A DNA stretch of 44,435 nt from IMG/VR virus record IMGVR_UViG_3300036832_001140, positions 1 through 44,435 of that record, one strand, 5' to 3'. Of the stretch, positions 6,380 to 44,435 are shown in pieces. Below the pieces are notes generated by a model, which had not been told where the DNA came from, made no database searches, and worked only from the letters and a program-made list of their open reading frames with translations. The stretch's first letter is position 1; each line of letters starts with the position of its first letter. Source of the stretch: a virus. The position numbers and the translations under genes were made by a program.

Positions 6380-6519
6380 CGGTCGCGCTCGACGAAGAAG
6401 CCGAAGCGCGTCCGGCGCACGTCGGGGTCGCGCAGGAGGAAGCGGGCGCAGATCGCGGCCAGGACGACGACCCCGACGACGAGCACCGCCAGCGGCTCGG
6501 TGCCGAGGAAGCCGGTCAC
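6268..6519 (-). CDS. Small membrane protein, holin candidate
   Basis: The GTG at 6519 overlaps the stop of the endolysin gene. The 83-residue product has one strong hydrophobic segment near the N-terminus (LAVLVVGVVVLAAICARFLL, about residues 9-28) and a long charged C-terminal tail rich in Asp, Glu and Arg. A single-span protein encoded immediately after an endolysin is a plausible holin, but the tail is longer than usual. Other membrane roles cannot be excluded. Confidence 0.65.
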   Translation of the reverse strand: MTGFLGTEPLAVLVVGVVVLAAICARFLLRDPDVRRTRFGFFVERDRYEEEGEDEIEPPWPRNLPSSLDLEDTKETPPSKEEP

Positions 6520-7439
6520 TCGGCAACGCGGACGAAGGTCGTCGCCTGGCCGGAAACACTGCGGCTGCAGCGGAGCACCTCGCCGCCGTTGGAGTAGTCG
6601 GCCGGGCCGGTGTTGCCCTCGATCGCCGAGAACGTCGAGCCGATGGACGACCACGCCTCAAAGATCCCGACGTGGTCGTAGGTGCCGTCGTAGCCCCAGT
6701 CGTAGCAGACGAGATCGCCCGCGATCGGGCTGCTCGTGGCGTTTAGCCCGTTCCGCCCGTTGCGGGCATCGCTGACGATGTAGGGGACGTAGGCATAGTT
6801 CTGGCCCTTGACGAAGCTCGGCGAGCCGCCTGCGTCGTGCTCGTAGCAGTAGGTGCAGAAGATCGCACACCACGGCTGGTAATCGACGCCGTACCACTCC
6901 CCGAACTTGGTGTGGTTGGAGTTCGCGGGCGACTCCTTGACGCCGATGTAGGTCTTCGCGGCGGCGAGCGCGCGCTGCCTCGTCGTTGTCGTCGACTCAG
7001 ACGGCGGCGGCGGCTCGGCCCCGCCGAACTGCTCCCACGCGAGCGCGACCAGGTTGGCGGCGTTCGCGTCCATCGCCATCTCGCCCTCGTGCGGACCAGT
7101 GGGGACGCGGATCGAGCGCAGGGTGTTGAAGGTCTTTTCGCCGATCCAGCCGGTGTCGTCGACATTCTGCTGGCGCTGCACCCCCGCGACCCCGGTGTCG
7201 ATCACGTCGCCGCTCGTGCCGTGCGCGAAGCCGTTGGAGTAGGCGCGATCAAAAACCGAGGCCGGGCCGGGCCAGCGCCCCGCCCGCCAGACGGTGCGCT
7301 TGTACGCCTCCACGTCGGGGCCGTTGATCGAGGGGGTCTTGCCCTTGTCGGCGGCGTCGGGCGGGTACAGCGGGCGCGGGAAGCCGGGGACGGCGACCAT
7401 TGGCCCGCCGCCGTAAGCGTGCTCCCACCAGTCGGTCAT
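6516..7439 (-). CDS. CHAP-domain endolysin with peptidoglycan-binding segment
   Basis: I choose the ATG at 7439 behind GAGGAGGCGAG, giving 307 residues. Residues about 40-115 resemble a peptidoglycan-binding domain (VQRQQNVDDTGWIGEKTFNTL). A Pro/Ser/Thr linker at 142-153 leads to a CHAP amidase/peptidase domain with Cys191 (YQPWCAIFC) and His256 (YDHVGIF), the expected catalytic pair, and a GNTG segment near 276-279. It should cleave host peptidoglycan at lysis. The next gene downstream is a membrane protein, consistent with a lysis cassette. No signal peptide is present. Confidence 0.85.
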   Translation of the reverse strand: MTDWWEHAYGGGPMVAVPGFPRPLYPPDAADKGKTPSINGPDVEAYKRTVWRAGRWPGPASVFDRAYSNGFAHGTSGDVIDTGVAGVQRQQNVDDTGWIGEKTFNTLRSIRVPTGPHEGEMAMDANAANLVALAWEQFGGAEPPPPSESTTTTRQRALAAAKTYIGVKESPANSNHTKFGEWYGVDYQPWCAIFCTYCYEHDAGGSPSFVKGQNYAYVPYIVSDARNGRNGLNATSSPIAGDLVCYDWGYDGTYDHVGIFEAWSSIGSTFSAIEGNTGPADYSNGGEVLRCSRSVSGQATTFVRVAE

Positions 7440-7522
7440 CTCGCCTCCTCGGGGTCGGGACCCGAGCGCAGGGCCGGGAGGAGGCGTCCCCCGTGGCCCC
7501 ACGCTGGGCCGAAGAGCCGCTC

Positions 7523-10373: not shown

Positions 10374-11585
10374 CTACGGAGGAGCGGTGATGCCGATCAT
10401 CAAGCCGTGCGTCCGCTCGTGGGCGATCTCGTACGTCGCCTCGGTCATGTACTCGGCGTTGTACGAGTCCTTACCGGCGGGCTGGCGGTCGGTGAGCAGC
10501 TTCGTGTCCGCGTTGGTCATCGGACGCCGCTCGACGTAGTCCATGTCGACGAGGAAGAGGTAGCCCCCGTAGCCCTTGTTGGCGACCGGGAACTCCGACC
10601 ACTCCTTCTTGACGACGACGGGGATCTTGTAGCCGTAGGCGCCCGAGATGAAGGCGTCGACGTTGACCCCGTAGACGTTGCGGGGCGTGGGGTCCCACTG
10701 CGATCCCATGCCCGAGCGGTTCCAGTTCGACATGCACATCGTGGCCGTCGGCGAGGCGAAGATCACCTTGTTGGTGCTGCCGACCGCCATCACTGCCGCG
10801 ACGAAGGCGTCGAAGAACGTCGGCGAGAGCACGCCGTTGGAGTCCTGCTTGTTGGTCTGGATGAACTCGACCAACCCTCCGGCGGTGCCTCTCGGGTTAT
10901 TCTCCGGCGGGACGGCCGCAGCGAAGGAGCGGGCACCGAAGAAGCCAATCATCTCCCACTTCTTCTTGTGCTCGCGCGCCTTGCGCTTGGCCTCCTTCGC
11001 AGGCTCGTTACCGCCGTACTTGTTGATGTTCGTGTCGGTGCGGGTGAAGCCCCAGGTCGTGCGCGTGATCTGCGTGTAGTTGAAGCCGAGCACACGCGCG
11101 AGGTAGCGGGGCGTCGGGAAGTCCGACCCCTGTGGCTGGGCATCTCCCGTGACGAGCCAGGCGTCGCTCGCGTTGATCGCGGCGGCGGGGATATTGCCGA
11201 TCCCGCGAGCGACGGTGATCGTGTCGGTCGCGACGGAGACGACACGGGCCATCTCGCCCGTCCGCATGTTGCGGATCATGTCGTTCCCCATCACGATCTT
11301 GCCCTGCCCGGCGCTGAGCGGGAAGCTCGTATCGCCGACGAGCTGGGCGGCGGTGTTCGTAACGATCCTCGGGAAGTCCTCTTCCTCCAGCCAGTTGACC
11401 TTCTCCGAGGTGGCGACCCGCGACGGGGTCTGCGAGGTCATCGTCGTGAACTGAGTGTCGTCCGGGCGTAGCACCCGGATCTTCTCGTCCATGTCGATGA
11501 TGCGCTCTCCGGCGAACGAGGTCGCGGCAGACGGTCCGACCTGTGCTTCGGTCGCGACGTTGCCCTGGACGATGGTGCCAGCCAT
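10374..11585 (-). CDS. Major capsid protein (SU10-like, HK97 fold)
   Basis: This 403-residue protein has the expected size and features of SU10-type major head proteins. There is an N-terminal arm with ERIIDMDEKIRVL, a segment EKVNWLEEEDFPRI, a helical spine region (EPAKEAKRKAREHKKKWEMIGFFGA), and a long A-domain-like part ending in YLFLVDMDYVERRPM and EATYEIAHERTHGLMIGI. It follows the scaffold gene and precedes a hairpin, as expected for a highly expressed capsid gene. The ATG is preceded by GGGAGG. Confidence 0.85.
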   Translation of the reverse strand: MAGTIVQGNVATEAQVGPSAATSFAGERIIDMDEKIRVLRPDDTQFTTMTSQTPSRVATSEKVNWLEEEDFPRIVTNTAAQLVGDTSFPLSAGQGKIVMGNDMIRNMRTGEMARVVSVATDTITVARGIGNIPAAAINASDAWLVTGDAQPQGSDFPTPRYLARVLGFNYTQITRTTWGFTRTDTNINKYGGNEPAKEAKRKAREHKKKWEMIGFFGARSFAAAVPPENNPRGTAGGLVEFIQTNKQDSNGVLSPTFFDAFVAAVMAVGSTNKVIFASPTATMCMSNWNRSGMGSQWDPTPRNVYGVNVDAFISGAYGYKIPVVVKKEWSEFPVANKGYGGYLFLVDMDYVERRPMTNADTKLLTDRQPAGKDSYNAEYMTEATYEIAHERTHGLMIGITAPP

Positions 11586-12719: not shown

Positions 12720-13023
12720 TGGCTGCCACCTCCTCGTCTCTCGGACTGCTCTCGGTCAACTCTCGTGCGCGCGCGTGCTCGGGGATCGAGCGGGCGGCGC
12801 GCAGGCCGACGATCCGACCGCGCATGAACGCCTGCTCCTCCAGGCTGATCCCGGCCCCGAGCATCTTCGCCATCATCGCCCGCTTGACTCGCTCGATCTC
12901 CTCCTCGACCACCGCGCCGAGCACGATCCAGTTGGGGAGGTCGACGAGGACGGCCAGCTCGTTGCGGCGCAGAAGCAGCGCGCGGCGCTCCTCCAAGCTG
13001 ATCACGCGCCGGGGTCTAGCCAC
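12712..13023 (-). CDS. Small helical protein between portal and scaffold
   Basis: This 103-residue protein starts at GTG 13023 and overlaps both neighbours by a few bases. It is helical, with an Arg-rich N-terminus (ISLEERRALLLRRNELAVL), a central helix VVEEEIERVKRAMMAKML and a variable acidic end. Such small genes between portal and scaffold are common in SU10/P22-type phages, but their role is unknown. Confidence 0.65.
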   Translation of the reverse strand: MARPRRVISLEERRALLLRRNELAVLVDLPNWIVLGAVVEEEIERVKRAMMAKMLGAGISLEEQAFMRGRIVGLRAARSIPEHARARELTESSPRDEEVAASE

Positions 13024-15010
13024 CCGGCGCTCCCGGCGGTCTCGGCGCGTTGTTGACGCCGCCCTGCATCGCCATCGTCCGCTGCATCGCCGCCTCGGGC
13101 GACATCGTCTGCGCGTTACTGGGCGACATCGGTCCGGCCGCGAGCGTCGGGTTGGTAATCCCCATCGGCGGCGGTTGGCCCATCGGCGGCGCCTGACCAG
13201 GCGGCGGTGGTTGCCCTGGCGGCGGCTGGCCGGGTGGTCCCGGCGGTGGTGCCCCGACCGGCGCGGGAGGCTTGGGCAGGTAGTAGCGCTCCTTGTCGGT
13301 GATGTTGTAGGCGTCGAGCGTCTTGTCCATGTACGCCTTGAGGTTGAGCGGGGTGCCCGACTGGGCGAAGATCGGCTGGAAGGTGGCTGCCATCTGCAGC
13401 AGTGACTGGGCCTCGGCGCGGCGCTCCTGGCGCATCAGCGAGTCGGCGGTCACGTCGATCGTCACGTCGTAGTCGCCCGCGATCTCGATCGGGGTGATCG
13501 AGCGGTACGCCTGCGCGCCCGCCTGGCCGACGATGCGGACGACGCGCTCCTCGCGCAGGAACTGCTGGTAGAGGAGGAGGAACTGCTTGCCGAGGCCCGC
13601 GTAGGCCCAGAGGTAGTGCTGCTTGCGGGCCTGGATGATCCGCTGGGCGATCGTGGTGATGATCGAGACGCCGGTCGCGGTCGACTGGTCGACCGTCTGA
13701 GAGTTGACCCCCGAGTTCATCGGCAGCCCGCCCATGATGTTCTGCAGGTCGCCCTTGAGCAGGGCCTCGGCCTCAAGGGTGATCGTCGCCGCCGCCGGGT
13801 CGATCTGGAGCTGCCCGACCTGGCCGGGATCCTCGACGAGCCACTGCGCGCCCGGCTCCCAAACGAAGCCCTCGGGGTCGTCCACGTCCGAGCGGATCAG
13901 CGTGATCAGGTTGGCGAGCATCCGCACCACGTCGATCCGCTGGTTCTGGAGCGTCCACAGCATCTCCTGGAGCTGGGCGAGCGCCTCGACGACCGAGAGG
14001 CCGGGGATCTGGAAGGCGTCGGGCATCCCCGAGCAGACGACGAACGGCATCCGCCCGAGCCAGAGCGGGTTGGGCCGGTCCTTGAGCACCTGCTGGCGGT
14101 TGCCGACCGTGATCACCCGCTCGGGCGTCCAATACTCCAGCACCTCGATGAGCTGAAAGGTGCGGTCGACGTTGCGCAGCCGCATCTCACGCTGGCTCAC
14201 GTCCGAGGTCTGCGGCGAGGAGCTGACGGACTCCCCGTGCTTGAGATCGTCGACGTGCTCGTAGTTGTAGAAGCCGTCCTTCTGCTTGCGCTTGAGCGAG
14301 TCGAACGTCTCCCAGGTGCGGTGGATCAGGTACTCGGCCTTCTCGACGTTCGGGGCCACGCCGGGCCAGAAGAAGTCGCGCACGTCGACGACCTCGGAGC
14401 AGGCGTCGTCGCGGATCATCGTGTCCTCCGGCGGGGCCTCGGAGTAGACGGTCATCGTGTCGTACTGGGTGCCGAAGGCGTCGGTGATCGCGAAGCTCTT
14501 GGGTGCGAGCCGGGAGACCTTGCGCGTCTCGGTCTGCCAGTAGCTCTTCAGCACCGAGATCCCCGCGATCATGTCCTGCTGCATGAAAGCCCGCTGCTTC
14601 ATCGCGAAGCCGTCACGGTCGAGCGCGTAGGCGAGCGTGTCCCCGATCGACTCGACCGAGGCGATCCGGCCGAGCACCTCCTGCAGCGGCTCGTCGGGTT
14701 GCGGGCGCGGCTGGATGTCGAAGCGCGGCTTCGGCTCCAGCATCGTCGCGAGCATCCCCTCGCAGGTCTGGAGCACGTAGGGGGTCGTGACCGCCGAGCG
14801 CCACGCCTCGGTCGGGTCGGGATCGGTCTGGCCGAGATCCTCGTCCTGGGCGAGACCTCGGTAGGCGAGGTAACGCCGCTCGACCTTGCGGATGAACTCG
14901 TCGTGGTAGTCGCGCTCGCACTTCTCGACCGCGTTGACGACGAGCGAGAGCGCGTCGGCGTTCTCGGTCTGGGTGTAGGGGTCGACGTTTGCCGCGAGGG
15001 TCTGCGACAC
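13016..15010 (-). CDS. Portal protein (P22-type)
   Basis: This 664-residue protein starts at GTG 15010, directly after the stop of the upstream gene. It has the typical order: an N-terminal helical wing, the crown-facing MPFVVCSGMPDAFQIPGLSVVEAL segment, a long stem helix region (LQEMLWTLQNQRIDVVRMLANL) and a clip/barrel-like C-terminal part (TVDQSTATGVSIITTIAQRIIQARKQH). The last 90 residues are a Pro/Gly/Met-rich disordered tail. It should form the dodecameric DNA channel at one capsid vertex. It lies between the terminase and scaffold genes, as usual. Confidence 0.85.
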   Translation of the reverse strand: MSQTLAANVDPYTQTENADALSLVVNAVEKCERDYHDEFIRKVERRYLAYRGLAQDEDLGQTDPDPTEAWRSAVTTPYVLQTCEGMLATMLEPKPRFDIQPRPQPDEPLQEVLGRIASVESIGDTLAYALDRDGFAMKQRAFMQQDMIAGISVLKSYWQTETRKVSRLAPKSFAITDAFGTQYDTMTVYSEAPPEDTMIRDDACSEVVDVRDFFWPGVAPNVEKAEYLIHRTWETFDSLKRKQKDGFYNYEHVDDLKHGESVSSSPQTSDVSQREMRLRNVDRTFQLIEVLEYWTPERVITVGNRQQVLKDRPNPLWLGRMPFVVCSGMPDAFQIPGLSVVEALAQLQEMLWTLQNQRIDVVRMLANLITLIRSDVDDPEGFVWEPGAQWLVEDPGQVGQLQIDPAAATITLEAEALLKGDLQNIMGGLPMNSGVNSQTVDQSTATGVSIITTIAQRIIQARKQHYLWAYAGLGKQFLLLYQQFLREERVVRIVGQAGAQAYRSITPIEIAGDYDVTIDVTADSLMRQERRAEAQSLLQMAATFQPIFAQSGTPLNLKAYMDKTLDAYNITDKERYYLPKPPAPVGAPPPGPPGQPPPGQPPPPGQAPPMGQPPPMGITNPTLAAGPMSPSNAQTMSPEAAMQRTMAMQGGVNNAPRPPGAPGG

Positions 15011-15406
15011 CTAGCCCCCGAGTCCGGGCAGTCCGGGGGCGCCGGTCAACGCGCGGACGAGGCTCTTGCCGCCGCCCTTCTGCGCGTCGGCCTGGTGACC
15101 GCCCTTGAGGCCGGTGACGATCGTGAGCGCCTTCGCGGCCTGGGCCTTGTCGACGGCGTCGTGGTCCATGCGGATGAACGCCTGCAGCGCGTGCTCGGCC
15201 ACGTCGAGCGCCTGCATCGAGGTCGAGTAGACATCGTCGGGGTGACCGGGCCGGTCGGGCAGGTCGGGCGGTGGCCCGGCGAGCGCGCCGAGGCCGGGAG
15301 GCCCGCCGGGGCCGAGACCAGGAGGAGGCCCGCCTGGGCCGAGACCGGGAGGAGGCCCTCCTCCTCGTGGCCCACCGGGGCCGAGCACGTCCATTAGCGA
15401 ACTCAT
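15011..15406 (-). CDS. Gly/Pro-rich small protein between terminase and portal
   Basis: The ATG at 15406 overlaps the terminase stop (ATGA), giving 131 residues. The N-terminal half repeats GPGGPPPGLG units. The C-terminal half is a helical domain (MQALDVAEHALQAFIRMDHDAVDKAQAAKALTIVTGL; quoted in parts) ending in a Gly-rich tail. The layout suggests a flexible linker joined to a small helical bundle. Function is unknown, and a packaging or portal accessory role is inferred from position. Confidence 0.65.
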   Translation of the reverse strand: MSSLMDVLGPGGPRGGGPPPGLGPGGPPPGLGPGGPPGLGALAGPPPDLPDRPGHPDDVYSTSMQALDVAEHALQAFIRMDHDAVDKAQAAKALTIVTGLKGGHQADAQKGGGKSLVRALTGAPGLPGLGG

Positions 15407-17055
15407 GCGACTCCCTTCTTCTCCCAGGGGTAGGAGGCTCTCGTCGAGCGACGGCGACGGGGCTTGGCGCGATAGCGGCGCTCGTGCACCCCGTAGAGGC
15501 GGTACATCTCCAGCGCGATCCCGAAGGCCATCACCCGGTCGTCGTTCGACCCGTCCTGGGCGCGCGGCGAGGGCAGCGTCTTCTGGCGGACGAAGGTGCG
15601 GCACTCCATGATCAGCGTCCGGTTGAGCGCCGGGATCGAGCGCTCGCGGATCGCCTGCTCGATCTGGTTGATCACCTGCGGCCTCGTCTTCTGGTTCATC
15701 GGGAAGCCGTAGTTCTGGAGCAGGTGGTTGTCGGGCCGGTCGGCGATCGTGTGCCGGTAGAGCTTCGGGTAGTGCGGCCTGCCCTTGCGCCCGTCGCGCA
15801 GGCTGATGATCACCGGCTCGCCGTAGCCGCCGCCCATCTCGACCGCGATCCGCGCCGTGCCGTACCAGCGCCCGAGGTAGTGGAGCTGCTCGGCGAACTC
15901 GTCGGCGTCGACCTTCCCGTGCAGCTCGGCGACGAGCGCCATCGAGGTCAGGTCGATCACGTAGGCGCACGAGTAGTCGAGGCCCCGGCCGGTCGCGACA
16001 TCGGCGCCGATCGCGTAGTCGTGCTCGCGGTCGGGCTTGGCGTAGACGCGCACCCAGCCCTTCGGCGTGTAGTGGATCTTCGCCTTGCCCCCGGTGGCGC
16101 TGACGATGAAGCGCATCCGCTGCTCGTCGGAGAGGACGGCGTTCTCCGAGTACCAGGCGAGCGCCTCCAGGTCGAACCAGCACTCGCCCGTGTTGATAAA
16201 GGCGTCCTCGGGGTTGCGCGGGAACTGCTCGGCCCGGTCGGCGGCGGGGAGCGCGCGGGCGTGACTCTCGTACCAGACCTCGTCGCGGTCGGGGTGGAGG
16301 TCCCAGGCGAGGAACTGGCCCTCGATCCCGTAGCTCTCCTGGTTGACCCAGAGGTGGTGAAAGAAGTTGCCCTCACCAGTCAGCTCGTTGGAGATCCCGT
16401 TCGCGGTCGAGATCACGATCAACTGCCCGCCGTTGTCGGCGGTCGGGAACAGCGCCTTCCAGCTCTCGCGCGCGTACTCGTGGCGGGCGTACTCGTCGAG
16501 CAGGACGATCGTGGCCGTCTCGCCGTGGCCCGCCCGACGGGTCGAAGGCAAGCCGACCACGGACGAGATCCGGCCGTCTGGGAAGGTGATCTCGATCAGG
16601 GTCGAGGGACGCGCTGTCCGCGTCGGCTTCGTGATCTCGCCGTCGTAGCGCAGGTGGTCCGGCAGCGAGTTGAACATGTCGAAGAGCCGGTTGACGACCT
16701 TGATCGCCTCGTCCTCGTTGATCGAGACGATCAGCGCCCGCGTGCCCGGCATCGTCAGGAGCTTCCAGAGCGCGTATCCGGCGGCGAGCCAGGTGATCCC
16801 GATCTGGCGGGCCTTCAGCACCATCGAGAGCGGGTGGTTGAGCCAGTCGTCGAGCACCTTGCGCTGCCAATACCAGCCCGCCTCGGGGTCGTTGAGGGTG
16901 AAGGCGAAACGCTCCCCGGTCTTCGGGTCGATGCACTGGACGTGGTCGAGCAGCGCGGCCGGATGCTTGAGCGCGGCCTCGCGCTCGCCCTTGCGCTGCT
17001 CGTAGACCTCGCGGAACCGCTGGAGCTTCTCGGGGTCGACCGTGGTTGCGCTCAG
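15403..17055 (-). CDS. terL: Terminase large subunit
   Basis: ATPase/nuclease motor that packages DNA into the prohead. With the start I propose (550 residues), the ATPase has Walker A KARQIGIT near residue 81, Walker B IVLLDEY with Asp187/Glu188, and motif III STANG near 216. The RNase H-like nuclease has Asp352 (GADVATG), Glu406 (AVEMGGG) and Asp505 (SNDDRVMAFG). The first conventional start is the GTG at 16857, which would remove 66 residues of typical pre-Walker sequence. No ATG, GTG or TTG exists upstream before an in-frame stop. A CTG at 17055 lies five bases after GGAGG and is my choice. Confidence 0.85.
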   Translation of the reverse strand: MSATTVDPEKLQRFREVYEQRKGEREAALKHPAALLDHVQCIDPKTGERFAFTLNDPEAGWYWQRKVLDDWLNHPLSMVLKARQIGITWLAAGYALWKLLTMPGTRALIVSINEDEAIKVVNRLFDMFNSLPDHLRYDGEITKPTRTARPSTLIEITFPDGRISSVVGLPSTRRAGHGETATIVLLDEYARHEYARESWKALFPTADNGGQLIVISTANGISNELTGEGNFFHHLWVNQESYGIEGQFLAWDLHPDRDEVWYESHARALPAADRAEQFPRNPEDAFINTGECWFDLEALAWYSENAVLSDEQRMRFIVSATGGKAKIHYTPKGWVRVYAKPDREHDYAIGADVATGRGLDYSCAYVIDLTSMALVAELHGKVDADEFAEQLHYLGRWYGTARIAVEMGGGYGEPVIISLRDGRKGRPHYPKLYRHTIADRPDNHLLQNYGFPMNQKTRPQVINQIEQAIRERSIPALNRTLIMECRTFVRQKTLPSPRAQDGSNDDRVMAFGIALEMYRLYGVHERRYRAKPRRRRSTRASYPWEKKGVA

Positions 17056-17074: not shown

Positions 17075-17413
17075 TTAGATCAGGCCACACAGCCTCGCCG
17101 AGTTCGGCCACGGGGTGTAGCCCCGGCCGGAGAGGTAGGCGCGCATCGCCACGACGATCTGCACGGCCGGAGGCCAGTGGTCGGCGGTGCCGTAGGCGCG
17201 GAGGAACTCGGGGCCGTAGGTGCGCTGGAAGCCGTAGTCCATCTGCAGCCCGCCGTAGTAGCTGTTGCCGGTGTTCGCGTTCCAGTCGCCCTCGTAGCGA
17301 TGGATGCACTGGAACGCCGCCCAGACTCGGCTCGCCTCACCCCCCGCGCGTGCGGCGCGTGCGATGACGACGGAGAGGGTGAGAGCGAGCGCGAGTAGGA
17401 CGGCAACCTTCAC
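17075..17413 (-). CDS. Secreted Rpf-like transglycosylase
   Basis: The GTG at 17413 lies seven bases after AGGAGG. The 112-residue product has a signal peptide (residues 1-23, hydrophobic VAVLLALALTLSVVIA, cleavage after an Ala-rich stretch). A compact resuscitation-promoting-factor/lysozyme-like domain follows: FQCIHRYEGDWNANTGN with probable catalytic Glu41, then YYGGLQMDYGFQRTYG and Cys109, which can pair with Cys36. Rpf-like domains are characteristic of Actinobacteria and their phages. It may cleave glycan at entry or assist lysis from outside the membrane. Confidence 0.8.
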   Translation of the reverse strand: MKVAVLLALALTLSVVIARAARAGGEASRVWAAFQCIHRYEGDWNANTGNSYYGGLQMDYGFQRTYGPEFLRAYGTADHWPPAVQIVVAMRAYLSGRGYTPWPNSARLCGLI

Positions 17414-38001: not shown

Positions 38002-39225
38002 ATGTCAGCGTCAGACTACGTGGTCGAGAAGACCACGCTGATCTCAGGAAGAGGCCAGGGGAACCTGGAGGAGTGGCTCTTCAGGACAGGCAGGATCGTC
38101 CATAAGAGCCGGGTCTACATCGGCAACAAGCAGCCGGTCAAGACCTGGGAGGGCCTCACGCGCACCGAGGCCAAGCGGAAGCACAACGACCGCCTGGTCA
38201 AGACGGCGAACGGTGAGAAGCCTGCTCAGCGGCTCCTGCTGAGCGACGTGATGGTCGATGCCTACGAGCATCTCGACAGCCTCGCGAAACGGAACGAAGC
38301 CTCTCGCGGGACCGTGAAGAACTACCGCGCGGCCTGGAAGAAGAGGATCGCGACCCAACCGATCGCCAGTATGCGGCTCGACCAGATCGACCGAGCAGCT
38401 TGTCTGCGGTTCCTGCGCGACCTTCGCAAGAACGTCGATCTCGGGACCTCGACCCAGAACGGCACCGTCAGTGCGCTCCGCAACGTTCTGCACTACGCAC
38501 GCGATCTGGACTACATGTCGGTCGACCCCTTCTCGGGCATCCCCAGTCGCGAGTTCCCGCCTCAGAAGGATCCGAATCCAAGACGGCTGTCTCGCCGGTT
38601 GAGCAACGGCGAGTCGCAACAGCTCCTCGCGGCGGCGCGATCCGAGGCGTTCGTCGAGCAGACGGACACGCTCTTCACCAATGCGATCATCCTCCTCCGC
38701 TACCAAGGCCCGCGCAGCAGCGAGGCCCTCGGCCTCCATTGGCGAGAGATCCACCTGATCGACGAGCAGATCAGCTTCGTCGGCCAGCTCGCTCGCGACC
38801 AGAAGGTCAACGACCCTGTCGTGATCCGGCCACCCAAGAACGGAGAGAACGGCTTTCGCAAGCCGTCGATGTTCCCCGAAGTCTGGTCGGCGTTGAACGA
38901 CCAGCTCCTTCACGAGCAAGGCAAGGGGCGGGGACGCCCTGACGACCTCGTCTTCACGACCGCCACCGGCCAGCCGATGAGTCGTCACTCTCTCCTCCTG
39001 GCCGTCAGGCGTGCGGCGGCTCTTGCCGGGCTAGGACGAGTCGTCCCGAAGGATCTCCGGTCGAGCTTCTTCACGGCGGGCGTGAACGCGGGCATCTCCC
39101 CCGCCGAGCTGTCCGAGATGGGCGGCAACACCGCAGCCGTGGTCGAGCGCTTCTACGCTGGCCCGATGCGCACCGCTGAGCAATCGAAGAAGAACGTCAC
39201 GAGGTTCGTCGCCAGCGGCTTCTGA
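38002..39225 (+). CDS. int: Tyrosine integrase
   Basis: This 407-residue site-specific recombinase has an N-terminal arm-binding/core-binding part (about 75-190, with the SAM-like helix bundle TVKNYRAAWKKRI...) and a catalytic domain. Seen are Arg238 (GPRSSEALGL), Lys candidates at 279-287 and Arg353 in KDLRSSFFTAG. The nucleophile is Tyr385 (VVERFYAG). The HxxR box reads KDLR, so the first catalytic His is Lys. The attP lies directly downstream, with a terminator between. It integrates and, with the excisionase, excises the phage. Confidence 0.9.
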   Translation: MSASDYVVEKTTLISGRGQGNLEEWLFRTGRIVHKSRVYIGNKQPVKTWEGLTRTEAKRKHNDRLVKTANGEKPAQRLLLSDVMVDAYEHLDSLAKRNEASRGTVKNYRAAWKKRIATQPIASMRLDQIDRAACLRFLRDLRKNVDLGTSTQNGTVSALRNVLHYARDLDYMSVDPFSGIPSREFPPQKDPNPRRLSRRLSNGESQQLLAAARSEAFVEQTDTLFTNAIILLRYQGPRSSEALGLHWREIHLIDEQISFVGQLARDQKVNDPVVIRPPKNGENGFRKPSMFPEVWSALNDQLLHEQGKGRGRPDDLVFTTATGQPMSRHSLLLAVRRAAALAGLGRVVPKDLRSSFFTAGVNAGISPAELSEMGGNTAAVVERFYAGPMRTAEQSKKNVTRFVASGF

Positions 39226-39249
39226 GGGTTAGGCAGATCCATCGAATCA

Positions 39250-39273
39250 GGGCGTCCTCCGGGGCGCCCTTTT
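39250..39273 (+). terminator. Rho-independent terminator after the integrase
   Basis: GGGCGTCC (39250-39257) pairs with GGGCGCCC (39262-39269) around TCCG, followed by TTTT. It stops integrase transcription before attP. Confidence 0.8.
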
Positions 39274-39291
39274 CGTGGTCCTAACGAGCTT

Positions 39292-39311
39292 CCCTGATCC
39301 TTCCCTGACCC
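39292..39311. repeat. attP arm-type repeats, left
   Basis: CCCTGATCC (39292-39300) and CCCTGACCC (39303-39311) are an 11-base-period direct repeat just left of the tRNA-like core. An exact inverted copy, GGATCAGGG, is at 39418-39426. They fit integrase arm-binding sites flanking the core. Confidence 0.6.
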
Positions 39312-39338
39312 TTGGCTCTCGGTGGGCCGCAAACCTAG

Positions 39339-39379
39339 AGCGGGTGGGGGGAATCGAACCCCCATGACCAGCTTGGAAG
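39339..39379 (-). other. attP: attP core: 3' half of tRNA-Gly(TCC)
   Basis: Read on the minus strand, TTCCAAGCTGG is followed by the T-arm GGGGG-TTCGATT-CCCCC and the acceptor CACCCGC with discriminator T. This is the 3' half of a tRNA-Gly with anticodon TCC, including the anticodon loop and everything downstream. The 5' half is absent: no matching acceptor or anticodon stem precedes it. Phages that integrate into tRNA genes carry exactly this, so that integration restores the tRNA. Confidence 0.85.
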
Positions 39380-39417
39380 ATCGCGTTCTCCGCGTAACAG
39401 AGCCAAACTAGGGTGAA

Positions 39418-39426
39418 GGATCAGGG
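39418..39426. repeat. attP arm-type repeat, right (inverted)
   Basis: GGATCAGGG is the exact reverse complement of the left arm repeat CCCTGATCC. Further CCTGACCCC-like copies lie at 39480-39500. The region 39427-39567 contains no gene. Confidence 0.55.
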
Positions 39427-39567
39427 CAGAAATCGGCTTGATTCCATACAGGTCGAGATCAGTCTCGCAATCTTCCCTAACCCCCTGCCTGACCCCTCTG
39501 ACCCCGATCGGGACCACGCGGAAGCGGCCCCCCTCGCGTCTCTTGACTGGGAGCGCGCGAGAGGGGC

Positions 39568-39816
39568 CTAGGCGTAGATCGAGGCGAGATAGCCGTTCAG
39601 CTCGTCCTTTTCCTCGGACGAGAGGTCGAGAGCCTCAAGCTCTTCGTTGACCTGCCAGCTCCTCGTCTCCCACGTCGACATCGGCGTCAGGTGCATCGCG
39701 ACCATCTCGTCCCAGACGAGCGTGTAGGCCGAGCGGAGCTTGTCGGTCGACGCCCGAGCGAGATCATCGGGCGGTATGTCCATCCGGTCGAGTGCGGCGA
39801 GTAGTTCTTCTCTCAT
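39568..39816 (-). CDS. Small late protein at the end of the leftward operon
   Basis: This 82-residue acidic helical protein starts at an ATG overlapping the stop of the lysin gene. Segments are LLAALDRMDIPPDDLARAST, YTLVWDEMVAMHLTPM and EELEALDLSSEEKDELNG. It is the last gene of the late transcript, next to attP. Function unknown. Confidence 0.6.
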   Translation of the reverse strand: MREELLAALDRMDIPPDDLARASTDKLRSAYTLVWDEMVAMHLTPMSTWETRSWQVNEELEALDLSSEEKDELNGYLASIYA

Positions 39817-40856
39817 GCGAAGCTCCTTGCGCCAACGTAGTCGCTACGTCCGGCGAGATTGGAGACGCGCACGTCGGCTCCTGTGTGCGGCGCCTCGACG
39901 AACTTGCCGCCGCCGATGTACATGCCAACGTGGCCGGGCAGATCGCCCTGGGGGTCGGAGCCGGTGAAGTAGACCGCGTCTCCGGGCTGCAGCTTGCTCT
40001 TCGCGACGGGCGTGCCCGCCTGGAACTGCTCGTAGGTCGTGCGCGGGATCTGCACGCCCTGCTGCCCCCAGACGTACTGGAGCAGGCCCGAGCAGTCGAA
40101 GCCCGAGGGGCTTGAGCCGCCCCACTGGTAGGGCGTGCCGATGAAGTGCTCAGCGAGGTGGACGGCGGCAAGGTCGCGCGGGGCCACCTTGCCCTGCACC
40201 TCGATCTGGTTGCCGTTCGGACTGGTCGCCGTCCTGACCCCGCTCGCCTGCGCCTGCTGCATCGGAGTCGTCATCCCCAGGGCCTTGCCAGCGCTCCCGA
40301 GCACGTCGAGGTTGCCCAGACCGCCCGTCGCCGAGAACATCGAAGAGGACGGGAGGATCGAAGAGGACGGCATCGAGGAGAGGGGCACGTTGGAGGGCGA
40401 GGGAGGCATGTTGTAGCTCGGAAGGCGTGGGCTGGCGCCGGAGATCGGCGCGAGCGACACGCCCCCGCCAGGCACGCCTTGCCCGAGCGCGCCGAGCGCG
40501 CCCGCGATCTCGGAGCTGGGGTTGGCGGGGCGCTCAAAGCTCGTGACGATCGCACGCACGGCAGCCGGGCCTTGCAATCCGCCCGCGACCTGACCGATCC
40601 GGCCGAGCGCGTAGTTGACGCCCTGCGGCGACCACGCCCACTGCTGCGAGGCGGCTGCGCCCTGTGGGGCGCTCGACGGGTACGCGCCGCCGTAGTGGAG
40701 CTGGAAGGGGCCGAAACTCGTCCCCTGGTCGCCGATCCCGCCGCCGAGGCCCTCCTGTCTCGCGACCGCGAGCACCGCGTTCGGGTCGAGACCGCGCGCG
40801 CTCGCCATCGCGGCAAGCTGGCTCGGACTTACCTGGATGCCGCTGGGAGCGGCCAT
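39813..40856 (-). CDS. Virion-associated lysin: lytic transglycosylase-like plus NlpC/P60
   Basis: This 347-residue protein has two parts. Residues about 10-115 resemble a lysozyme/SLT-like fold (AVARQEGLGGGIGDQGTSFG, PFQLHYGGAYP) with a candidate catalytic Glu. A Pro/Ser/Met-rich linker (about 140-175) leads to an NlpC/P60 peptidase at 230-340 with Cys255 (GFDCSGL), His309 (GHVGMYIGGG) and His324 (APHTG). Encoded with tail proteins, it probably opens the cell wall during DNA entry. Confidence 0.85.
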   Translation of the reverse strand: MAAPSGIQVSPSQLAAMASARGLDPNAVLAVARQEGLGGGIGDQGTSFGPFQLHYGGAYPSSAPQGAAASQQWAWSPQGVNYALGRIGQVAGGLQGPAAVRAIVTSFERPANPSSEIAGALGALGQGVPGGGVSLAPISGASPRLPSYNMPPSPSNVPLSSMPSSSILPSSSMFSATGGLGNLDVLGSAGKALGMTTPMQQAQASGVRTATSPNGNQIEVQGKVAPRDLAAVHLAEHFIGTPYQWGGSSPSGFDCSGLLQYVWGQQGVQIPRTTYEQFQAGTPVAKSKLQPGDAVYFTGSDPQGDLPGHVGMYIGGGKFVEAPHTGADVRVSNLAGRSDYVGARSFA

Positions 40857-41471: not shown

Positions 41472-44435
41472 TTACTGCCCCGCCGCTGCGCGCTGGGCGG
41501 CGACGGTGGGGTCGGGCTTCTTGATCGGGGCGCCGAGCCAGGCCCAAAGGGCCGTCTCGCGATTCCGCTGCGGGTACAGCTTGGACGGGCCTCGCGGCCA
41601 GATGAGCTGCGAGGTCGGGAGGCTGGTGAAGATGTTTTCGGTGCCCTTGGCGATCATCGTCAGCGGGTTGGCCGTGCCGCCGTGCGCCGTCTCCTTTGCG
41701 TACTCGTCGAGTGCGCCCTGGATGAACGGGTTGAGGCCGAGGGTCGAAACGTCCTGGTCGGAGCCGCGCACGAGCTGCTCCAGGGTCGACCACGGGTTGA
41801 GGCCGCTCGTCGAGAGAATCCGTCCGTGGCTGAGCGGGATTCCACCCTGTAGGTAGCTCGGGAGCACGGCGTTGAGCGCCGACATGTTGTTCATCCCCAT
41901 CTTCCCGAGCTGGAAGAGCAGGTTGGCCCGGAGCGGGTTGTTGACGGCGAGGTGGAAGGTCGCCGAGAGGATCGCCCTGTACCAGGCGTAGAAGGGCAGC
42001 GCGGTGCGGAAGACGTTTTGCTCGATCCCGCTCAGGTCGCGGTAGTTACCGAGGCTGCGGTCGACCTCCCTGGAGACGTAACGCTGGAAGGCAAGCCCGC
42101 CCTGGCCCTGGTGGAGCCTCTCGGCTGCGGCCTCAAAGCTGCGCGTGTCCTTGGGCATCGAGCGGTAGACGGCTTTGAACTCGGGCGAGCGGCGGGTGAA
42201 GTTGCGGATCAGCAGGCGTCTCAGATCGCCCTCGGCGACCTTGGCCGTGAGCTTCGGGATCGCGCTCGTGGTCGCGCCAAACGCCTTACCCGCCTTGCCG
42301 GAGAAGCCGCGCAGGTAGCCCTGGGCGCCCGGCGCCTGGGTGTAACCGAAGCTGCCGAAGCGTTCCATCTGCTCGGGGTAGTGGCGCTGATAGAAGCTCT
42401 CCCTCGGCGGTGGCGCCACCGGCTGGCGCGCCGATTCGTCGCCGACCTCCGAGAATGGGATCCTGTGCTCGGGAGTCTCCAGCCCCCTGCCGTAGCGGAG
42501 GAGGCCAGCGCCGGGTGCAGCGGCGCCGACGCCAAGCGCTCGGGCCGCGTCGGTGGTCAACTGCGCCCGCAGGGCGGGTGGCGTGGCGTGGTCGTCGAGG
42601 AGCGCCTTCGCCGTGCGCCAACCGTGATGCTCCAGCACCGACATGAACAGGTCGCGGAACATGCCCGTGCCGCCGACCTTCGCGGCCGTCATCAGACCGT
42701 TGCCGATCAGGTTATTGGTCAGGAAGCCGGGCCGCGTCCCGAGCAGGAGCGCCCGCCAGATCCGTATCGGGTACTTGTTGAAGTAGTAGAGCGGCGTCGA
42801 CATGCGGGTGAACTCGCCGGTCGCCGCCCTCGCGGCGCTCTTGTTGATGATGTGGTACTCGCCCGTCGCGGGGTCGAGTCCCTCGGCCGGGTTGTCCGTC
42901 GTAAACCCCTTCTTGACCAACTCGGAGTGCTGAAGATCCTCGGCGTTGGGCATGATCCGTGCCAGCGCCTGCGAGCTGGGGACGCCGCTCGCACCACCAG
43001 CCTCCTCGGCAGCCTGCGCACCCTTGAGCGGGACCTCACCCTCGGCCCTGATCGTGTAGGGGACGTGGAAGTTGAGGTCGGGACGTAGGTAGGTGAATCC
43101 CTTGGGCAGCGTCTGGCCGGGCAGCGCCTGGATGTCGTCCCAGGAGAGGCGCACCGACCCCTGCTTGAGCGCGTTATGGATCTCGTTCGCCTTCAGCCAC
43201 TTGTTACGACGTAGCCATTCCGGTCCGAGCGTGTCCCTGCCCAGCACGAGCTTGCCCGCCCCGAAGAGGATCCCCCGATTCCGCTTCAGAGCACCGGGCT
43301 TGGCGACCGGCGCCTTGCCCATGCCGCTGGAGGCGAACGGGTGTGAGCCGACCTTCTCTGGCTGCATCGAGTGCGGGAAGTAGTAGGGGTCGCCCGTGAT
43401 CCCGATCTCGTGCTCGGGTAGCCCGGACTGCTTGGAGACGATCGTTTTGAAGCGGCCGGGTCGTTCGTACTCGTTCGTCAGTACCTTGCCACCGGCTTTG
43501 AACAGCTCGGCGCCCGACTGGGAGAGGGCGCGCATGACCGGCTCGGCGCGCAGCATCTTCTTACTCGGGTCGAGCGCCAGCTCGCGCACCGCCGGAGTCA
43601 ACTCCGCTTCAGCCGGTGTGCCCGCCCAATGCTCGGCGAGCACGTCGGGCTTCACGTCGAGGGCGCGGACGTGGAGCGCCGTCCACTCGCTCGGGTTGAG
43701 CGACTTGGTCACCTTCGCGTACTGGTCGAAGACCGGCATGCGCATGTAGGCGCTGCGGTTCGTGTCGCTTCTGATCACCTTCCCCCACCGTCTCAGCTCG
43801 GTCTGGAAGAGGTGGAGCCTGCTGTCGGGGTTGAAGCGGGTGACCTTCTGCACGGCGGCGGCGCCGAGGTTGCGCAGGGGCTTGGTCGAGGTGATGTCCT
43901 TGACCACCGGGCCACCCGTGCCCGGCTGGTAGACCTCGCGCGGGGAGCGGGTGAGGACTTCGCCCCGCTCGCCGAGCTTCGCCAGCTTGCCCACGTCCGC
44001 GAGCTTGCCCGCTTGGGCGGCGGCGCCAGCGCCAACGTCGGCGACGGTGAGCGCGTCGAGGATCGGCTGCCACGGGTCCTTGTAGATGTGCCCGCCCAAG
44101 TCGTGACCATAGAAGCCCTTGTATTGCTGCGCTGCCCCCTTGACGATCGCCTGGGAGGTACTCCGCGTCTTGTTTGCTTCGGCGCGAGCCTTGCCGACGT
44201 TGCCCTCCAAGAGATAGCCGACCGCTCTCGCCTCGTGGTAGGGGAGCGAGCCGAGCGTCACCGCCGCCGGGCCGAGACCGAGGACGTGCTCGCCGAGGCT
44301 CGTCCCGGTGTTCTCGATGAACTGGGCGCCCGAATACTTCTTCAGGTCGCCCCAGAAACCACCGCCGCCCTTCTTCGGAGCTGAGCGGGCACCTGCAGTC
44401 GTGGTGCCGAAGAGATCGGGAGCGTCCCCTCCCCC
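41472..44435 (-). CDS. Large virion protein (main part; start lies at 234 after circularisation)
   Basis: This is the bulk of a 1013-residue protein that begins at 234 on the left end. It is alpha-rich, with amphipathic helices and a hydrophobic C-terminal third. The segment VFRTALPFYAWYRAILSATF followed by HLAVNNPLRANLLFQLGKMG recalls the C-terminal region of very large phage proteins thought to be internal virion/ejection proteins. Other segments (RIWRALLLGTRPGFLTNNLI) are membrane-active in appearance. It probably leaves the head with the DNA. Family is not certain. Confidence 0.75.
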   Translation of the reverse strand, partial: GGGDAPDLFGTTTAGARSAPKKGGGGFWGDLKKYSGAQFIENTGTSLGEHVLGLGPAAVTLGSLPYHEARAVGYLLEGNVGKARAEANKTRSTSQAIVKGAAQQYKGFYGHDLGGHIYKDPWQPILDALTVADVGAGAAAQAGKLADVGKLAKLGERGEVLTRSPREVYQPGTGGPVVKDITSTKPLRNLGAAAVQKVTRFNPDSRLHLFQTELRRWGKVIRSDTNRSAYMRMPVFDQYAKVTKSLNPSEWTALHVRALDVKPDVLAEHWAGTPAEAELTPAVRELALDPSKKMLRAEPVMRALSQSGAELFKAGGKVLTNEYERPGRFKTIVSKQSGLPEHEIGITGDPYYFPHSMQPEKVGSHPFASSGMGKAPVAKPGALKRNRGILFGAGKLVLGRDTLGPEWLRRNKWLKANEIHNALKQGSVRLSWDDIQALPGQTLPKGFTYLRPDLNFHVPYTIRAEGEVPLKGAQAAEEAGGASGVPSSQALARIMPNAEDLQHSELVKKGFTTDNPAEGLDPATGEYHIINKSAARAATGEFTRMSTPLYYFNKYPIRIWRALLLGTRPGFLTNNLIGNGLMTAAKVGGTGMFRDLFMSVLEHHGWRTAKALLDDHATPPALRAQLTTDAARALGVGAAAPGAGLLRYGRGLETPEHRIPFSEVGDESARQPVAPPPRESFYQRHYPEQMERFGSFGYTQAPGAQGYLRGFSGKAGKAFGATTSAIPKLTAKVAEGDLRRLLIRNFTRRSPEFKAVYRSMPKDTRSFEAAAERLHQGQGGLAFQRYVSREVDRSLGNYRDLSGIEQNVFRTALPFYAWYRAILSATFHLAVNNPLRANLLFQLGKMGMNNMSALNAVLPSYLQGGIPLSHGRILSTSGLNPWSTLEQLVRGSDQDVSTLGLNPFIQGALDEYAKETAHGGTANPLTMIAKGTENIFTSLPTSQLIWPRGPSKLYPQRNRETALWAWLGAPIKKPDPTVAAQRAAAGQ
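44280..44435. repeat. Terminal direct repeat, right copy
   Basis: Same sequence as 1-156 except T instead of C at 44309. See the left copy. Confidence 0.9.

Follow-up and report, generated by a model that had tools for sequence, protein, structure and literature searches.

The 44,435-nt stretch analysed here (called the window throughout, with positions counted along its whole length) carries part of a tRNA gene close behind the gene of a tyrosine integrase. We asked whether this locus is the attP of a temperate phage, which gene such a phage would enter, and whether the tRNA part tells the host. The window belongs to an uncultured phage from soil, and the following marker genes show it to be tailed:

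6516-7502, minus strand, CHAP protein
10374-11585, minus strand, major head protein
13016-15010, minus strand, portal
15403-16857, minus strand, terminase
39813-40856, minus strand, NlpC/P60 tail protein

The first and last 156 bases of the 44,435-base record (1-156 vs. 44280-44435) agree with one mismatch, and the IMG/VR record is displayed without mention of end repeats. A circle of about 44.28 kb is most likely the form of the genome, which is probably complete. It is owing to this 156-base overlap that the window can be read as a circular phage genome with an attP.

The tRNA-Gly(TCC) half, its repeats and the integrase

The elements at and around the site are given below, the arm-type copies being named after the words that they match.

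38002..39225, plus strand, int, tyrosine integrase of 407 aa (PF00589, 1.5e-10; phrog_1 integrase, 4e-36)
39226..39233, minus strand, inverted arm-type copy right behind the int stop (YCTRAYCC)
39250..39273, plus strand, terminator-like hairpin and T run 3′ of int, read from the sequence
39293..39300, plus strand, arm-type copy in the P arm (YCTRAYCC/CCCTGAYCC)
39304..39311, plus strand, arm-type copy in the P arm, 11 bases from the copy at 39293 (YCTRAYCC/CCCTGAYCC)
39339..39380, minus strand, attP core, tRNA-Gly(TCC) 3′ half, anticodon loop through discriminator base (direct reading and in silico joining)
39373..39379, minus strand, anticodon loop CTTCCAA, presumed 7-base overlap (crossover) region
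39418..39425, minus strand, inverted arm-type copy on the P′ side (YCTRAYCC/CCCTGAYCC)
39476..39483, plus strand, arm-type copy in the P′ arm (YCTRAYCC)
39488..39495, plus strand, arm-type copy in the P′ arm (YCTRAYCC)
39497..39504, plus strand, arm-type copy in the P′ arm (YCTRAYCC)

The core comprises 42 bases, lies 113 bases behind int and starts one base ahead of the anticodon loop. It contains a T arm (GGGGG-TTCGATT-CCCCC) with five G-C stem pairs, the acceptor strand CACCCGC and the discriminator base T, after which no CCA follows. ARAGORN called no complete tRNA in the window, where the 5′ half is missing. When a cellular tRNA-Gly(TCC) (L002) supplied the missing 5′ half in silico, the program called a tRNA-Gly(TCC), vs. 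none in the native stretch. An Rfam scan of the att region gave no tRNA match and two weak matches to tmRNA models at the T arm, both far below threshold. Direct reading, ARAGORN and the in silico restoration thus bear out the claim of the earlier note that the core is the 3′ half of a minus-strand tRNA-Gly(TCC). The crossover role of the CTTCCAA loop is presumed from known tRNA-targeting tyrosine integrases. As tRNA genes occur in some phages and serve in tRNA-dependent lysogeny (PMC10865867), the half might be a degenerate phage tRNA gene at which there is no attachment site. Yet what is left of this gene is a 3′ half whose T arm is fully paired and which breaks at the anticodon loop, and the same break occurs in three relatives; we consider such a remnant highly improbable.

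The earlier note described direct CCCTGAYCC repeats on one side of the core and an exact inverted copy on the other. These were confirmed, with starts at 39292 and 39303 and the inverted copy at 39418, where the match extends past the nine bases; the whole 44 kb has just three plus-strand and two minus-strand copies. The core and repeats placed at 39292-39426 are therefore real, but four copies had been missed (39226 on the minus strand; 39476, 39488, and 39497 on the plus strand) and the true span is about 39226-39504. The copies at 39293 and 39304 are spaced by one helical turn, as arm-type pairs often are, and the relative L119 has a P′ arm similar to the stretch that runs from the 39497 copy up to about 39516. 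Seven of the 19 YCTRAYCC sites found on both strands of the whole window fall within 39226-39504, and the ten densest 290-base stretches listed for this word are all at or around the att site. The stretch 39200-39560 holds seven sites, whereas 5000 dinucleotide shuffles of it had 0.16 on average and never more than 3; this test is biased by the derivation of the motif from the same region. In an unbiased test the best-repeated 8-mer (at most one mismatch) had seven copies, a number reached by 0 of 300 shuffles. The repeat density around the core exceeds chance.

The predicted model of the integrase matches Tn1549 Int, Xer, and lambda Int in the PDB; three strands and a helix are predicted at its N-terminus, with pLDDT mostly below 50 there. 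The active site of tyrosine recombinases usually has two His (or His/Trp), and at these positions the window integrase has Lys in place of the first His and Gly in place of the second His/Trp (alignment A2). The activity of the protein is uncertain because of these two replacements, and the site might be an attP that was formerly used and is now inactive. The 407-aa frame is nevertheless open, the repeats are intact, and the same alignment shows that the first His is missing from the integrases of L126 and L119 too, and the second from that of L120, so we give loss of function a small chance. A peptide-pattern search for relatives of the integrase in IMG/VR found none, the search in plasmids gave zero matches, and the search in phages returned four Streptococcus phages at about 24% identity.

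Relatives and the presumed route of integration

Terminase and portal searches yielded 98 loci on 82 different IMG/VR contigs, and 49 of the 82 were searched for PF00589. An integrase was found in 12 of these 49 relatives, with G009 and G041 seeming to be near-copies. In three of the 12, all found through their terminase, a tRNA 3′ half stands behind int (G004 and G017, Gly-CCC; G002, Ala-TGC), placed and oriented as in the window, with the acceptor end towards int; by eye, a terminator-like hairpin lies between int and core in all three as well as in the window. Repeats of TGACCCC or TGGCCCC type flank these cores on both sides. In the unbiased repeat test the observed number was reached by 13/300 shuffles for G004, 23/300 for G017, and 1/300 for G002, and the repeats of G004 and G017 are weakly beyond chance. 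Upstream of int, G004 also has an EGFOA RNA (RF02955) above the gathering score (L113, 2362-2463, minus strand), while the window has none at the gathering threshold.

The adjacent integrase, the repeats, the circular contig and the matching layout in three relatives lend strong support to the attP layout of tRNA core and arm-type sites proposed in the earlier note. A tRNA half also marks the ends of a prophage, and the window could be pictured as the attL or attR junction of an integrated element. The int-side junction would then hold a complete tRNA, of which ARAGORN finds none. Phage-type genes stand on both sides of the site, including the NlpC/P60 tail protein gene at 39813-40856, and the contig closes on itself; the flanking phage genes and overlapping ends nearly refute a junction, to which we assign hardly any probability. 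Almost certainly, a temperate tailed phage whose tyrosine integrase is lambda-like has its attP here, an ordinary site of a kind already known. The integrase would bind the arm-type repeats on either side of the core, and the anticodon-loop region of attP would recombine by strand exchange with that of the host tRNA-Gly(TCC) gene. Insertion would cut the host gene, the phage 3′ half would rebuild an intact tRNA-Gly at the int-side junction, and the host’s own 3′ half would be displaced to the far prophage end; the existence of lysogens is presumed. Phages with such tRNA-half sites insert in the matching tRNA gene, and the predicted place of the prophage follows from this established knowledge, although we found neither a lysogen nor an attL/attR pair.

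Similar cores near a tyrosine integrase occur in the actinophages Journey13 and Getalong. Mycobacterium phage Journey13 likewise has a tRNA-Gly(TCC) 3′ half from the anticodon loop, 83.7% identical to the window core and of the L5 kind, but located upstream of int, whereas that of the window lies downstream. According to Table 2 of PMC10865867, the Gordonia phages Whitney and Kuwabara have attB in tRNA-Gly-TCC, with cores of 51 and 47 bp. They share with the window the isoacceptor, a long tRNA-rebuilding core and the lack of a phage tRNA, but belong to another phage group and have a core identity of 81.4%. The tDNA-targeting islands of the Islander set are also alike: in PMC4383910, a tDNA fragment in an attP of ~250 bp restores the target, and an anticodon-centred subsite is common (2083 islands).

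The host question

The earlier note expected the core to identify the host. A genome search for tRNA-Gly(TCC) genes with an identical 3′ end was run, and the exact 41-base core had 0 matches in genome_contigs, as also in IMG/VR; no empty attB was found. A relaxed form of the core, with five positions free (the variable loop and one T-loop base) and two end bases dropped, matched three genomes of genome_contigs from three unrelated phyla (an Armatimonadetes MAG, a Kiritimatiellia MAG, and an Asaia MAG). Because the relaxed matches scatter in this way, we make no host call, and the expectation was not borne out.

Armatimonadota were followed up because the L002 core differs from the attP core at 1/41 bases, and a core with at most three mismatches was present in 11/201 of their genomes. 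We rejected this phylum as host: its terminase relatives (17/151 genomes) do not exceed 34 to 39% identity, vs. up to 87% in viral contigs, and L002 encodes the CCA that attP lacks. A search for WhiB as an actinobacterial marker gave 0/28 records. The following domain also occurs in relatives:

17075-17413, Rpf-like transglycosylase domain PF06737

It was detected in 10/28 records (four above the cut-off, window included), and among 14 control genomes it had a match in Corynebacterium glutamicum only. These matches are a hint that may point to an Actinomycetota host. Among known phages, similar cores occur in those of Mycobacterium, Gordonia, Escherichia, and other hosts, and, judged by such comparisons, the tRNA half is too widely conserved to name a host.

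Two kinds of tRNA half and the TTTGGCT...AGCCAAA bracket

In another three of the 12 integrase-bearing relatives we detected a tRNA 5′ half: G036 (Gly-CCC), G021, and G014 (both Ser-CGA). These halves are located as follows:

L116, 5711, plus strand, Gly-CCC 5′ half
L124, 7303, plus strand, Ser-CGA 5′ half
L120, 6118, minus strand, Ser-CGA 5′ half

They run through the anticodon loop and then depart from the tRNA. The ad hoc search for 5′ halves, which covered twelve stretches, also returned one full tRNA-Cys and three matches without tRNA sense. The complete tRNA-Cys of G034 (L127, 7844-7916) lies about 0.8 kb behind int and could be a case of tRNA-dependent lysogeny. No tRNA half was recognised in the remaining 6/12 relatives, G034 among them. 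In all seven half-bearing phages, window included, the half stands between int and the anticodon loop; since it is always on the int side, a rebuilt tRNA would be expected at the int-side junction with either type of half.

The integrase tree comprised 14 sequences, 12 of the group (near-copy G009 omitted) together with Journey13 and Getalong. A branch with support 87/90 sets apart the three 5′-half rows together with two rows without a known half, and the group’s four 3′-half rows with two others fall under 91/96, in a tree with long branches in which the join of the window and G017 is flagged unsafe. From these sequences, the half carried seems to follow the integrase clade and not the packaging genes. 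The sequence TTTGGCTTARATACA with a tRNA 5′ start behind it was found in IMG/VR in just the three phages already known, and is possibly a promoter of the 5′ half; shorter forms of it also stand beside 3′-half cores.

The 5′-half strategy is known but rare, and the mixture of both halves is a rare variant. PMC4383910 gives 3760 Islander islands with a 3′ fragment vs. 159 with a 5′ fragment, whereas here the 5′ half occurs in 3/12 integrase-bearing relatives. In a thaumarchaeal survey (PMC6563490), recombination of the 5′ type is described as considerably rarer, with reference to Zhao and Williams (2002). In a limited literature search we met no report of 3′- and 5′-half types within one phage group.

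The window core is also bracketed by an inverted pair of words, identified by pair scan:

39312..39317, plus strand, TTGGCT, left member of the pair
39401..39406, plus strand, AGCCAA, right member of the pair (AGAGCCAA / TTGGCTCT)

The scan looked for TTGGCT followed by AGCCAA within 40-170 bases in 156 sequences (phage loci, some cellular). Pairs were found at six places, namely the window and G002, G036, G014, G021, and G034 (loci beside the window: L103, L106, L107, L111, and L127). In 5/6 the pair encloses a tRNA half; that of G034 has no recognised half and stands about 2.2 kb behind int. G017 is without the pair, and G004 has both words in a different arrangement. Seven pairs were counted in 267,700 bases, while 59 permuted words averaged 1.3. 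As one of the permuted words had 7 as well, the count by itself is no proof, and the case for the pair rests on where the pairs are located and not on their number. The window words separate the arms from the core, a place taken in lambda by host-factor sites, and TTTGGCT...AGCCAAA is perhaps a site for a DNA-bending or excision protein.

Taken together, these data can be read as soil phages with common packaging genes that swap their integration module between two integrase clades, one whose attP has a tRNA 3′ half and one with a 5′ half. The half would lie between int and crossover in both, such that the int-side junction always rebuilds the tRNA; the common TTTGGCT...AGCCAAA bracket, perhaps bound by a bending or excision protein, would serve both, and a prophage of the 5′ type would also have to supply the host tRNA promoter. 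We put this forward tentatively, with the balance tilting slightly against it.

The site indicates how an uncultured phage from soil would integrate into its host while leaving a tRNA gene functional, and its core provides a tag to seek in new genomes. The usual 3′-half and the rare 5′-half ways of sparing the tRNA gene are both present in one phage group, and this mixture of halves is a natural set for testing what decides which half is carried.
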